64,000 nt of DNA from Luteimonas sp. MC1572 (GTDB lineage Bacteria > Pseudomonadota > Gammaproteobacteria > Xanthomonadales > Xanthomonadaceae). Made by a program: the position numbers and the translations under genes. Below the pieces are notes generated by a model. That model did no database searches. It saw only the letters and a list, made by a program, of their open reading frames with translations, and was not told where the DNA came from. Numbering within the stretch: position 1 is the first letter of the stretch; each line of letters begins with the position of its first letter. Of the stretch, positions 28,193-32,303 are shown one piece after another. The stretch is taken from the NCBI RefSeq assembly GCF_016615815.1, contig NZ_CP067112.1, positions 558,001 through 622,000 on the forward strand, in the 5' to 3' direction.

Positions 28193-30715
28193 TTGGCCAC
28201 ACTCGCCCTCAGGCATCTCGCCGCTCCATTGCTGGTCGCTACGCTGCTGTGGGCACCCGTGCCCGCCGACGCGCGCGACACCCCGGTTGCCGCGGCAGCC
28301 GCCGCCGAATCGGGCTACCGCCTGCCCCCGCCGGCGCTGCGCGCGCTGGTCGACGCGCCGCAGGCACCGCGGCTGTCGCTGTCGCCACGGCGCGACCTGA
28401 TCGCCTACATGCAGGTGCCGTCGCTGCCGGGCATCGACGTGGTGGCCCAGCCGGAGCTCAGGCTCGGCGGGCTGCGCATCCATCCGCGCACCCATTCCTC
28501 CAGCGCCTTCAGCTTCGTCGACGACCTCTGGCTGCAGGCAGTGGATGGCGGTGCGGAGCGCCGCATTGCCGGCCTTCCGCAGCCGCTGGCGCTGGCCGCG
28601 ATGCAGTGGTCGCCCGACCAGCGCCATATCGCCTTCAGCCACGTCGACACGCGCGCCGGGCGCGTGGAGCTGTGGCTGGTCGACGTGGCCGCGGGCCGTG
28701 CACGGCGGCTGACCGAACAGGCGCTTGGCACGGTGGTCGGTGAAGGCTTCGACTGGCTGCCGGGCGGGTCCGGCCTGCTCGCCACGCTGCGGCCGCAGGA
28801 GCAGGGCGCGGCGCCCGCCAGCGACGGCGTGCCGCGCGGCCCGAGCATCCAGGAAACCGACGGCGGTGGCCGCGTGCAGAGCCTGCGCACCTACCAGGAC
28901 CTGTTGCGCAATCCGCAGGACACCGAGGTGTTCGCGCACTACATGACCACGCAACTGGCGCGCGTCGGGCTCGACGGTCGCGTGACGCCGATCGCCGCGC
29001 CGGGCATGCACGTCGGCGCCGCGGTCTCACCCGACGGACGCCATCTGCTGCGCCAGCGCATCGAACGCCCGTTCTCGTACCTGGTGCCGTATTCGCGCTT
29101 CCCGCGCCGGATCGACGTGATCGACCTTGATGGTCGCCTGCTGCACACCGTGGCCACGCTGCCGCTGGTCGAAGGCCTGCCCACCGGCAACGACGCGGTG
29201 GCTCCGGGCGTGCGCCGCATCGCATGGCGCGCCGACGCGCCCGCGACCCTGGTCTGGGCGGAGGCGCAGGACGGCGGTGATCCCGCCCGCGCGGCCGCGG
29301 TGCGCGACCGCGTGTTCGCCCACGCGGCGCCGTTCAAGGGCAAGCCGCAGGTGCTGGCCGACCTGTCGATGCGCTATGCCGGCGTGCACTGGGGCAGCGG
29401 CGACCTGGCGCTGCTCACCGAGTCCTGGTGGAAGAGCCGCCAGCTGCGCGAATGGCGGCTGGCGCCGGATGCCGGAAGCGCGCCGGTGCTGCTGCGCGAG
29501 GGTTCGCGCGAAGACCGCTACGCCGACCCGGGTGAGCCGGTGACGCATGCGGACGCGCGCGGATTCCAGCGGCTGCTGACCACCGCGGATGGCGAAGGCA
29601 TCTACCGCATCGGCGAAGGGGCCTCGCCAGAAGGCGACCGTCCGTTCCTCGATCGCCAGCAACTCGGCGTTCGCGCCGGCACGGAGCGCCTGTTCCAGTC
29701 GGAAGCGCCGGGGTACGAGGTGCCGATCGCGGTGCTCGACGCCGCGGGCGCGCGCATCCTGACCACGCGCGAGTCGCCGACATCGCCGCCCAACGTGCAC
29801 CTGCGCGCGCTCGGCAACGGCGCGGCGCCGGTTGCGCTGACCGACATCGCGCATCCCACGCCGGAACTGCGCGATGTCAGCAAGGAGCAGATCCGCTACA
29901 CCCGCGCCGACGGCGTGGAGATGACCGCCAACCTGTACCTGCCGCCGGGCTACCAGGCCGATCGCGACGGTCCGCTGCCGATGCTGGCCTGGGCCTACCC
30001 GCGCGAGTTCAAGTCCGCCGATGCCGCGGGCCAGGTCACCGGTTCGCCGTACCGCTTCAACCGCATCAGCTACTGGGGGCCGCTGGCCTACCTGGCGCAG
30101 GGCTATGCGGTGCTCGACGGTCCGACCATGCCGATCGTCGGCGAGGGCGACGCCGAGCCCAACGACAGCTACATCGCCCAGCTGGTGGCCAGCGCCCAGG
30201 CCGCGGTGGATGAAGTGGTGAAGCGTGGCGTGGCCGACCGCGACCGCATCGCCATCGGCGGACATTCGTACGGTGCGTTCATGACCGCCAACCTGCTGGC
30301 GCATTCGGACCTGTTCCGCGCCGGCATCGCGCGCAGCGGCGCCTACAACCGCTCGCTCACGCCGTTCGGCTTCCAGGCCGAGGAGCGCAGCTACTGGCAG
30401 GCCACCGCCACCTACCAGGCGATGTCGCCGTTCGACCACGCCGACCGCATCGACGAGCCGGTGCTGATCATCCACGGCGAGCAGGACAACAACTCCGGCA
30501 CCTTCCCGATGCAGAGCGAGCGGCTGTTCTCGGCGATCAAGGGGCTCGGTGGCCAGGCGCGGCTGGTGATGCTGCCCAACGAGTCGCACGGCTACCGGGC
30601 GCGCGAGTCGATCCTGCACATGCTGGCGGAGACCAATGACTGGCTGGAGACGTACGTGCGCAACGCGCCGCCGCGTTCGGCGGGGAGCGAAGTGGAGGCT
30701 GCGGCAAGTCCGTAA
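28193..30715 (+). CDS. S9-family prolyl oligopeptidase-like serine peptidase, exported
   Basis: An 840-aa exported peptidase. The start is a TTG after ACAGGA; a signal peptide (ALRHLAAPLLVATLLWAPVPADA) follows. A beta-propeller-like domain covers about residues 60-570, and an alpha/beta-hydrolase domain covers the C-terminus with nucleophile motif IGGHSYGAFM (Ser about 692), Asp in HGEQDNNSG and His in PNESHGYRARE. The family cleaves short peptides, often after Ala, Pro or Gly (dipeptidyl peptidase or glutamyl endopeptidase-like). The gene is divergent from ahcY. Downstream lie unusual inverted repeats and a shared terminator with metK. Confidence 0.9.
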   Translation: MATLALRHLAAPLLVATLLWAPVPADARDTPVAAAAAAESGYRLPPPALRALVDAPQAPRLSLSPRRDLIAYMQVPSLPGIDVVAQPELRLGGLRIHPRTHSSSAFSFVDDLWLQAVDGGAERRIAGLPQPLALAAMQWSPDQRHIAFSHVDTRAGRVELWLVDVAAGRARRLTEQALGTVVGEGFDWLPGGSGLLATLRPQEQGAAPASDGVPRGPSIQETDGGGRVQSLRTYQDLLRNPQDTEVFAHYMTTQLARVGLDGRVTPIAAPGMHVGAAVSPDGRHLLRQRIERPFSYLVPYSRFPRRIDVIDLDGRLLHTVATLPLVEGLPTGNDAVAPGVRRIAWRADAPATLVWAEAQDGGDPARAAAVRDRVFAHAAPFKGKPQVLADLSMRYAGVHWGSGDLALLTESWWKSRQLREWRLAPDAGSAPVLLREGSREDRYADPGEPVTHADARGFQRLLTTADGEGIYRIGEGASPEGDRPFLDRQQLGVRAGTERLFQSEAPGYEVPIAVLDAAGARILTTRESPTSPPNVHLRALGNGAAPVALTDIAHPTPELRDVSKEQIRYTRADGVEMTANLYLPPGYQADRDGPLPMLAWAYPREFKSADAAGQVTGSPYRFNRISYWGPLAYLAQGYAVLDGPTMPIVGEGDAEPNDSYIAQLVASAQAAVDEVVKRGVADRDRIAIGGHSYGAFMTANLLAHSDLFRAGIARSGAYNRSLTPFGFQAEERSYWQATATYQAMSPFDHADRIDEPVLIIHGEQDNNSGTFPMQSERLFSAIKGLGGQARLVMLPNESHGYRARESILHMLAETNDWLETYVRNAPPRSAGSEVEAAASP

Positions 30716-30731
30716 CGAGACCTGCCCTGTG

Positions 30732-30822
30732 GTGGCCGGGAGGCCGTCGCGGCTCATGTCCCCCGGATCCGCTTGCGACGGATGCCTCCTCCTTGACTTC
30801 CCCGCGACGGCCTCCCGGCCAC
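30732..30822. repeat. Nested inverted-repeat element, copy A
   Basis: Perfect 21-bp outer arms (30732-30752 and 30802-30822) enclose CTCATGTCCCCCGG (30753-30766), a small ATCCG/CGGAT hairpin (30767-30783) and GCCTCCTCCTTGACTTC (30784-30800). The inner flanks recur, inverted, in copy B, while the outer arms and the small hairpin differ in sequence. No open frame is supported here. It is a structured intergenic element of a type I do not recognise. Confidence 0.85.
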
Positions 30823-30921
30823 TTCGGGGCTTAGTGCTCGCCGCGGGTAGCGCAAGCATTCGCGAGACCGGGCTTTGGGCTGTGAGCTGTGTGCTCCCGG
30901 GCCAACGCGTAAGCCGGCACA

Positions 30922-31017
30922 CCGGGTGCCAAGGCCCTTGAGGGCGAAGTCAAGGAGGAGGCGATGGCCGCAGGCCATCGCCGGGGGACATGAGTCCTCA
31001 AGGGCCTTGGCATCCGG
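30922..31017. repeat. Nested inverted-repeat element, copy B (inverted)
   Basis: Outer arms of 22 bp (30922-30943 and 30996-31017) pair with one mismatch. Inside are GAAGTCAAGGAGGAGGC (30946-30962), an 8-bp hairpin CGATGGCC-GCA-GGCCATCG (30962-30980) and CCGGGGGACATGAG (30981-30994). The two flanks are the exact reverse complements of those in copy A. The roughly 100 bases between the copies (30823-30921) show no gene. This stretch from 30716 to 31091 is otherwise non-coding. Confidence 0.85.
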
Positions 31018-31035
31018 CGCCGGGGAGAGGAACCG

Positions 31036-31068
31036 AAAAAAGAACGGGCCGCGATTGCGGCCCGTTTT
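31036..31068. terminator. Bidirectional terminator between S9 peptidase and metK
   Basis: Ten-bp stem AACGGGCCGC (31043-31052) with GCGGCCCGTT (31057-31066), GATT loop, an A-tract before it and TTTT after it. It can end both the metK transcript (minus) and the peptidase transcript (plus). Confidence 0.88.
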
Positions 31069-31091
31069 CCTGTCGCACGCGTTGTCGCGGA

Positions 31092-32303
31092 TTACTTCAG
31101 CTTCGCGGCCCGGCGCAGTTCGTCCGCCTTGTCGGTCTTCTCCCAGGAGAACGCCGTGGCCTTCTGCAGCTTGCCGTCGGGGCCGGTGTAGCTGACTTCC
31201 TGCGGCTTGCGGCCGAAGTGGCCGTAGCTGGCGGTGCGCTGGTAGATCGGGTGGATCAGGTCGAGCATCTTGATGATGCCGTACGGGCGCAGGTCGAAGT
31301 GCTTGCGGATCAGCTTCTCGATCACGTCGTCGCCGACCTTGCCGGTGCCGAACGTGGTCACCGAGATCGAGGTCGGCTCGGCCACGCCGATGGCGTAGCT
31401 CAGCTGCACTTCGCAGCGGTCCGACAGGCCCGCGGCCACGACGTTCTTGGCGACATAGCGCGCGGCGTACGCGGCCGAGCGGTCGACCTTGGACGGATCC
31501 TTGCCCGAGAACGCGCCGCCGCCGTGGCGGGCCCAGCCGCCGTAGGTGTCGACGATGATCTTGCGGCCGGTCAGGCCGCAGTCGCCCACCGGGCCGCCGA
31601 TCTCGAAGCGGCCGGTCGGGTTAATGTGGAACTTGGTGCCCTTGTGCAGCCACTTGGCCGGCAGCACCGGCTTCAGGATCTCCTCGCGCACGGCTTCGAT
31701 CAGGTCCTTCTGCTTGATGCCCGGCGCGTGCTGGGTCGACAGCACCACGGCGTCGATCGCCGTCGCCTTGCCATCGTCATAGCGCAGGGTGACCTGGCTC
31801 TTGGCGTCGGGGCGCAGCCACGGCAGCGGCGAGTTCTTCTTCTTGCGGATCTTGGCCTGCTGCTCGACCAGGCGGTGCGACAGGTGGATCGCCGCCGGCA
31901 TGAAGCTGTCGGTCTCGTTGGTGGCGTAGCCGAACATCAGGCCCTGGTCGCCGGCACCCATTTCCTCGGGCTTCTTGCGGTCCACGCCCTGCGCGATGTG
32001 CGGGCTCTGCTTGCCGATCAGGTTCAGCACGCCGCAGGTGGCGCCGTCGAAGCCGACGTCGCTGGAGTCGTAGCCGATGTCCAGGATCACCTTGCGGGTC
32101 AGCGCTTCCAGGTCGATCCACGCGGTGGTGGTGATCTCGCCGGCCACGATGGCCACGCCGGTCTTGACCATCGTCTCGCAGGCGACGCGGGCGCCCTTGT
32201 CCTGGCCGATGATGGCGTCGAGGACCGCGTCGGAAATCTGGTCGGCGATCTTGTCGGGATGGCCTTCGGAGACCGATTCGGAGGTGAACAGGGTGCTCGA
32301 CAT
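31092..32303 (-). CDS. metK: S-adenosylmethionine synthetase
   Basis: Makes SAM from methionine and ATP. The 403-aa protein starts [21 protein letters not shown] (family opening), with [12 protein letters not shown] (ATP loop region) and the phosphate-binding [22 protein letters not shown] at 32303 is preceded by AAGGGA. No SAM riboswitch is evident in the 120-base upstream region. The gene is divergent from the YdjM-like hydrolase gene. Confidence 0.98.

Follow-up and report, generated by a model that had tools for sequence, protein, structure and literature searches.

Two inverted nested hairpins with a nearly fixed core and freely varying stems: a possible REP-like mobile repeat of Luteimonas

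Positions 30724-31017 of a 64,000-nucleotide stretch of the Luteimonas sp. MC1572 genome (the window) were found to form a single unit of about 290 bp, in which two nested hairpins, A and B, stand face to face with the same inner flanks and with stems that are unrelated yet pair, as an earlier sequence-only reading had proposed. Each hairpin comprises an outer stem, an internal loop with the sides CTCATGTCCCCCGG and CCTCCTCCTTGACTTC, and an inner hairpin; hairpin B repeats the core of A in the opposite orientation. Across two bacterial orders the core of the internal loop hardly varies. The stems may take any sequence provided that they pair, and they pair best when read as the strand carrying the purine form of the core (the purine-core strand, reading TCAAGGAGGAGG..CCGGGGGACAT). 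We consider it an even call whether these hairpins make up one old copy of a non-autonomous mobile repeat resembling the repetitive extragenic palindromes (REPs), whose hairpins would be read in single-stranded form by a trans-acting factor. Short intergenic repeats are usually defined by their sequence; here a shape and a short core are kept, and the stems are nearly free.

Stem covariation and the folding strand

When the folding of A and B was compared with that of 200 dinucleotide shuffles, z ranged from -7.0 to -9.2 for DNA and from -7.2 to -9.7 for RNA on either strand, and none of the 200 shuffles equalled the folding of A or B on either strand. The arm length first given for B stands (22 nt, 95% complementary), while the 21 bp given for A had to be revised to 29 nt at 90%. 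In 77 hairpins of divergent genomes, RNAalifold returned 24 pairs, 23 of them changed on both sides. On the purine strand, double compensatory changes were seen in 24 of 25 stem pairs, and 94.0% of the cells paired, compared with 37-45% when slid. A model-fitted alignment of 145 distinct hairpins gave 96.2% pairing cells, compared with 59.9% for shuffles and 38-42% when slid. These figures strongly support, across species, the proposal that unpaired parts are conserved between variable but paired stems. The first pair of the inner stem was G-C in 145 of 145 hairpins and the core was nearly fixed; since most loci were fetched via the core, this conservation is partly by construction, the partner hairpins and the genus members found by BLAST being less biased in this respect.

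Two classes of core were distinguished beside the loop, GAA/UUC with ordinary pairs (59 of 150) and GAA/UGA with tandem G.A (55 of 150). Within a unit, the two hairpins fell in the same class in 58 of 61 pairs, though their stems are unrelated, as expected if they share one factor. The central C..T of the core was swapped to T..C, which is A.G to G.A on the purine strand, in 5 of 122 hairpins, with 3 half-swapped, 107 unswapped and 7 unresolved; counts from the model-fitted alignment, likewise small, were 3 swapped, 3 half-swapped and 144 unswapped (n=150).

The mismatches that the stems tolerate are one-sided. In 87 divergent hairpins, outer-stem mismatches flanked by pairs read as 150 G.U and 13 A.C on the purine strand, which is 150 C.A/A.C and 13 G.T/T.G on the pyrimidine strand, and 71 individual hairpins leaned one way against 3 the other. 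Of a further 152 mismatches or gaps, 97 were C.T/T.C, i.e. G.A on the purine strand. Standard pairs in the same 77 hairpins made up 94.0% as purine strand and 86.9% as pyrimidine strand, and further pair types exceeded the shuffles solely on the purine strand. Within six genomes, for which 144 of 157 fetched hairpins could be compared with the local consensus, there were 43 distinct position-changes to G.U and 15 to A.C (p 3e-4). Because A and B expose opposite chromosomal strands, any bias of replication or transcription should cancel. The excess of G.U over A.C indicates that the purine strand folds alone, as RNA or as single-stranded DNA (ssDNA), rather than in a cruciform; this is the form under selection, and the data do not separate RNA from ssDNA. 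By identifying the folding strand, the one-sided wobble also offers a handle for fishing out the recognising protein.

A large cruciform had been suggested for the pair. A double-stranded cruciform or bidirectional terminator recognised by its shape would agree with the inverted symmetry of the unit and with its frequent position between converging genes. However, mismatches of 150 against 13 are not expected of a double-stranded form, and the hairpin of metK is the sole terminator-like match in window 30650-31150. Both readings were rejected on these grounds, and we regard such a form as highly improbable.

In the scheme that we favour, a trans-acting protein would recognise the purine-core strand by its shape and purine core whenever it is single-stranded, either as ssDNA in replication or transposition or as RNA, in a manner analogous to the action of TnpA-REP on the bulged REP hairpin. 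Given the inverted arrangement, either DNA strand would present a single active hairpin, on the 3' side of that strand.

Distribution, layout and gene context

Among 41 genomes searched, a match was present in 9, that of the window included, all of one genus, of which 25 genomes had been searched; G013 is Luteimonas terricola BZ92r and G003 is L. padinae (identical sequence). A class-level scan was positive in 3 of 369 genomes (again counting the window's own), all from the window's family, and a scan of the order of one Variovorax in 6 of 200, that Variovorax included. Across 84,980 species, at least 118 stretches matched. Among the matches listed, 80 stretches bear names. They comprise, on the Xanthomonadales side, Luteimonas, Thermomonas, Stenotrophomonas, Lysobacter, a 'Xanthomonas' metagenome-assembled genome (MAG) and a Lysobacteraceae MAG; among Burkholderiales/betaproteobacteria, Rhodoferax, Hydrogenophaga, Variovorax, Rubrivivax, Polaromonas, Ideonella, Aquabacterium, Methylibium and others; and one MAG labelled just Gammaproteobacteria. 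The family thus ties together repeats of two bacterial orders, and its distribution is patchy. Each of 24 carrier genomes from the species scan (21 with names) held 1 to 72 exact matches, Variovorax IB41 having 72 and Stenotrophomonas Ste86 54; L. terricola had 77. A reversed-pattern control gave no match in any genome scan (1, 9, 369, 24 and 200 genomes). No match was obtained in viral contigs, and none to the window unit in plasmids; the Variovorax unit was matched on three megaplasmids (NZ_CP070344, NZ_CP138514 and NZ_CP138516), with no annotated feature beneath the match.

The genome of the window itself holds 17 matches of 279-339 bp, covering nearly the whole 306-bp query (E <=1.4e-58), besides fragments, and 40 exact core hairpins against none for the reversed pattern, so that the pair belongs to a multi-copy mobile family, as the sequence-only reading had thought possible. 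A looser regular expression combined with pairing filters was abandoned as noisy. In all 17 long copies, one outer stem of type I (GTGGCCGGGAGGCC-like) faces one of type II (GTGCCAAGGCCC-like). L015 and L017 carry a type I inner hairpin inside a type II stem, and parts of the unit therefore recombine.

Neighbouring hairpins less than 700 bp apart converge in 54 of 59 cases, with a start-to-start distance of 134-252 bp in 55 of the 59. In two genomes with one exact match each (G449 and G497), the inverted pair appears under a relaxed pattern (L360, L361). Units or half-units lie in short tandem arrays at L119, L154 and L091.

The window copy was correctly placed 3' of an S9 peptidase gene (28193-30715, +); it is intergenic, the gene beyond it being the converging metK (31092-32303, -), both names having been assigned by reading translations. 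Between divergent genes lay 1 of 46 pairs at loci of the species scan, 0 of 17 in the window genome and 0 of 19 in L. terricola, whereas unit-free gaps at the same loci were divergent in 100 of 387, 7 of 20 and 4 of 12 cases, respectively. Between converging genes, the corresponding counts were 16 of 46, 9 of 17 and 11 of 19 for pairs and 38 of 387, 2 of 20 and 0 of 12 for unit-free gaps. For these counts the gene caller was trained on window genes, and pairs at a locus edge (10 and 1) were excluded. Units are located 3' of genes. Solo hairpins, judged by the gene calls made in this analysis, had no clear orientation relative to the neighbouring gene.

The neighbour proteins of 118 loci were clustered and nine representatives were identified (ABC, LysR, histidine kinase, short-chain dehydrogenase, RuBisCO, acyltransferase, GGDEF, response regulator and TctC), with no transposase among the nine. 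At L072, L085, L112, L123, L128 and L155, the unit lies near a gene of one cluster, of which the L085 member is a RuBisCO large chain (Pfam); the named hosts of these loci include Rhodoferax, Polaromonas and Ideonella. At L060, L077, L093, L103, L155, L162 and L163, an extra small conserved hairpin, TTGGCAAAACCCCAAG, directly follows CCTCCTCCTTGA. The same motif occurs in L168 without the hairpin core, and it may therefore be a separate tiny mobile hairpin.

Of the described elements, the beta-proteobacterial repeat element (BRE; Hot et al. 2011), found through an RNAz screen, comes closest. According to the part of its description available to us, BRE is 75-91 bp long, 69% GC, mostly intergenic and multi-copy, occurs in Rhodoferax ferrireducens, Polaromonas, Delftia, Acidovorax and Bordetella, and forms tandem arrays with few bases separating the copies (PMC3110155). 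The present family matches it in length, GC, intergenic position and hosts (PMC3110155), being found in Polaromonas and in Rhodoferax, one record of which is named R. ferrireducens. For BRE, the text consulted presents neither a sequence nor a secondary structure, and mentions neither inverted pairs nor hosts in the Gammaproteobacteria (PMC3110155). Compared by description only, BRE may be the closest published relative and possibly the same family, a lead that may give BRE, for which the 2011 text consulted proposes no function, a testable structure (PMC3110155). Searches of the open-access literature for the letters of the core returned only an aptamer paper and papers unrelated by title, and within those searches the family is not described.

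Several of these observations suit a structured RNA, in which the purine-core hairpin would act at the RNA level, within a 3' UTR or as a small RNA, with a conserved RNA-binding protein as its partner. The inverted pair would then ensure one active hairpin for either transcribed strand, and mobility would merely spread the hairpin. G.U is tolerated on one strand, the internal loop varies in ways typical of RNA (GAA/UUC against tandem G.A GAA/UGA, and the A.G to G.A core swap), and units are located 3' of genes. G.T and tandem G.A are, however, found in folded ssDNA too. The orientation of solo hairpins is not clearly tied to the neighbouring gene, and no Rfam family matched the hairpins at the gathering score (window 30500-31300 and 18 of the 118 loci), the weak matches in the window being all far below it. 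For BRE, a possible relative, Northern blots detected an RNA of about 80 nt from one copy, by the portion of the report at hand (PMC3110155). We rate a structured RNA as a possible but less than probable account.

Mobility and transposition ends

The locus of the window copy is also occupied in L. terricola, and in G019 the same S9 peptidase-metK junction has the terminator alone. When 30 query loci of the window genome (28 distinct places) were compared with 20 loci fetched from L. terricola, which hold just part of the 77 hairpins of that genome, 4 gave a match longer than 400 bp. In L. terricola the unit lies inside a miniature inverted-repeat transposable element (MITE) with the ends GGTTCATCTCCCAACT / GGTTCTTCTCCCAACT, beside the A/T runs of terminators, and L. 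padinae has a 467-bp form of the MITE-borne unit. The ends are nearly identical to those of an ISL3-family insertion sequence (IS) in another Luteimonas genome, G046 (L248; 1309 bp, open 414-aa frame, PF01610 E 1.5e-69). An 8-bp A/T-rich target duplication is a hallmark of the ISL3 family. Judged by eye, such duplications were complete (8/8) in L240 and L048 and nearly so (7/8) in L246, L234 and L133. These ends and the readable duplications show that the unit spread through L. terricola and L. padinae as cargo of an ISL3-family MITE, which landed in the A/T runs beside terminators.

The two MITE ends are not both present at the window copy (Table 1): no left end was recognised by eye, and the candidate right end, which adjoins the A-run of the metK terminator, is worn. 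The copy is probably a worn relic of an insertion of the L. terricola type.

Table 1. Coordinates of the window copy and of adjoining features
Feature	Positions	Strand	Remarks
Hairpin A, left outer arm	30724..30752		pairs with 30802-30830; 29 nt, 90% complementary
Hairpin A, 5' core CTCATGTCCCCCGG	30753..30766	+	pyrimidine-rich on +, purine-core strand is -; (near-)invariant between species
Hairpin A, inner hairpin ATCCG..CGGAT	30767..30783		from folding
Hairpin A, 3' core CCTCCTCCTTGACTTC	30785..30800	+	kept among copies
Hairpin A, right outer arm	30802..30830		partner of 30724-30752
Spacer between A and B	30831..30921		conserved in part among copies
Hairpin B, left outer arm	30922..30943		pairs with 30996-31017; 22 nt, 95%
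Hairpin B, core GAAGTCAAGGAGGAGG (+ reading)	30946..30961	-	core of A in opposite orientation; purine-core strand is +
Hairpin B, inner hairpin GGCGATGGCC-GCA-GGCCATCGCC	30960..30982		from folding
Hairpin B, core CCGGGGGACATGAG (+ reading)	30981..30994	-	100% complementary to 30753-30766
Hairpin B, right outer arm	30996..31017		partner of 30922-30943
Probable worn right end of ISL3-type MITE, GGGAGAGGAACC	31023..31034	-	judged by eye; intact L. terricola form GGGAGATGAACC
metK terminator-like hairpin	31043..31066	-	host sequence, outside the unit

Seven comparisons were made against other Variovorax genomes. The unit was common to both genomes at two sites (L339, L348) and absent at one (L350), L354 had unrelated sequence, L349 carried a shortened form, and L344 and L347 were remnants with the hairpins largely deleted.

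Since the copies of L. terricola and L. padinae have ends of ISL3 type, 8-bp duplications where readable and a position at terminator A/T runs, the unit could be taken for a plain ISL3-family MITE whose hairpins are incidental interior sequence. In Burkholderiales, however, the core persists along with covarying stems, and by eye, among the matches listed, the hairpin unit has no visible ends of that kind there; the window genome, too, keeps the hairpin part while the ends are mostly gone. We therefore hold a plain MITE to be very unlikely.

Further ISL3-type sequence was seen in two genomes. At L262 in G046, an end of an ISL3-family IS abuts the hairpin core (TCGTAAGTAAAG adjoins the IS end) in a locus with three hairpins and a duplicated stretch, and at L268 in the same genome an identical IS lies about 110 bp beyond a hairpin. 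G043 has six short ISL3 remnants (L254, L264, L269, L271, L274 and L275), whose match to the transposase profile is confined to its final 28-29 positions and which are likely another MITE family.

The REP resemblance and the search for a transposase

REPs are palindromes of 20-50 nt with a GTAG tag, on which TnpA-REP acts strand-specifically, as the consulted part of PMC8266576 has it. In the sections of the literature available, REP, BIME and REPIN elements share several traits with the present family: it is intergenic, multi-copy and non-autonomous and forms inverted doublets (PMC2817692, PMC8266576, PMC3733652), and its stems are species-specific and its hairpin strand-specific with a bulge (PMC2817692, PMC8266576). 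Unlike REPs, its hairpin is nested and about 90 nt long, a core of about 20 nt is common to two orders, the spacer is mostly about 50-110 bp, and neither a GTAG/CGTC tag nor a linked REP-associated tyrosine transposase (RAYT) was found. The family is thus like REP in several ways and falls outside it on tag and size.

We tentatively propose that Lysobacteraceae and Burkholderiales share a class of mobile, structured nucleic acid that acts single-stranded and would be new. Its members would have a G.A purine-rich internal loop between freely varying stems, an inverted pair giving either strand exactly one active copy, and one conserved trans-acting factor, and the module would be carried by differing transposition ends, of ISL3 type in Luteimonas and others elsewhere. 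This wider proposal is more doubtful than probable.

A number of results weigh against the preferred reading, that of a REP-like mobile repeat read by a trans-acting factor. In one of the five covariation measures, the pairs with changes on both sides exceeded the shuffles only modestly (24 vs 21.6, a value reached in 12 of 500). The mismatch bias was weak in the window genome alone (10 vs 4 changes; 29 vs 20 in a cruder count) and likewise in G608 (5 vs 4) and G424 (5 vs 3). L229 has no target duplication, and most duplications in L. terricola are not readable owing to the A/T runs; in Variovorax, an empty site (L307/L350) shows no clear target duplication. PF01610 had no match in G000 or G013, so no source transposase is left there. 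The ends in Variovorax differ (TTCAGGGCG), and by eye no ISL3 ends were seen outside Lysobacteraceae; one mobilising enzyme therefore does not explain all copies. Neither the clustered neighbours, of which nine representatives were identified, nor the Y1_Tnp loci yielded a gene for the recognising factor linked to the unit. Of those Y1_Tnp loci, 57 were examined with roughly 1.5 kb of flank in either direction, or as far as the contig reached (27 of one set and 30 of the 33 places of a second, three places having no locus), and none holds the hairpin; the lone regular-expression match, in L411, is coding sequence.

A linked REP-associated transposase, for which the sequence-only reading had called for a search, was thus not found at these 57 loci. 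The hairpins might still be long, atypical REPs moved in trans by a RAYT, with which they would share a strand-specific hairpin with a conserved bulge and inverted pairs. A REP family is expected to have a cognate Y1 transposase in its genome, most often with the repeat on its flanks. Y1_Tnp was present in 27 of 32 carrier genomes and in 7 of 16 non-carriers (Fisher p 0.006). Among the 27, G001 is borderline as a carrier (one match, E 9e-4) and G423 as a Y1 holder (E 9.6e-4), and the carrier tally leaves out the Y1-searched genomes G041-G045. The co-occurrence is, however, confounded by taxon, being 7 of 10 against 7 of 16 within Luteimonas (p 0.25). Five carriers (G000, G013, G046, G608 and G624) have no Y1_Tnp, among them the two richest of the nine Luteimonas genomes, that of the window and L. 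terricola. At no single offset did more than 6 of 86 hairpins show a GT[AG]G or CGTC tag, full hairpins of about 83-115 nt exceed the size of REP palindromes, and the three domain pieces scored against NCBIfam REP_Tyr_transpos reached 46-50 against a cut-off of 80. Movement by a RAYT is accordingly judged unlikely, even though four of the Y1_Tnp genes are RAYT-like. These four (L407, L408, L409 and L411, in three Variovorax genomes and G418) lie near a gene with a DACGVGF motif, which in L411 is a glutamate-synthase-like GATase_2 (E 3.4e-117); the arrangement looks like a stably placed, perhaps domesticated transposase.
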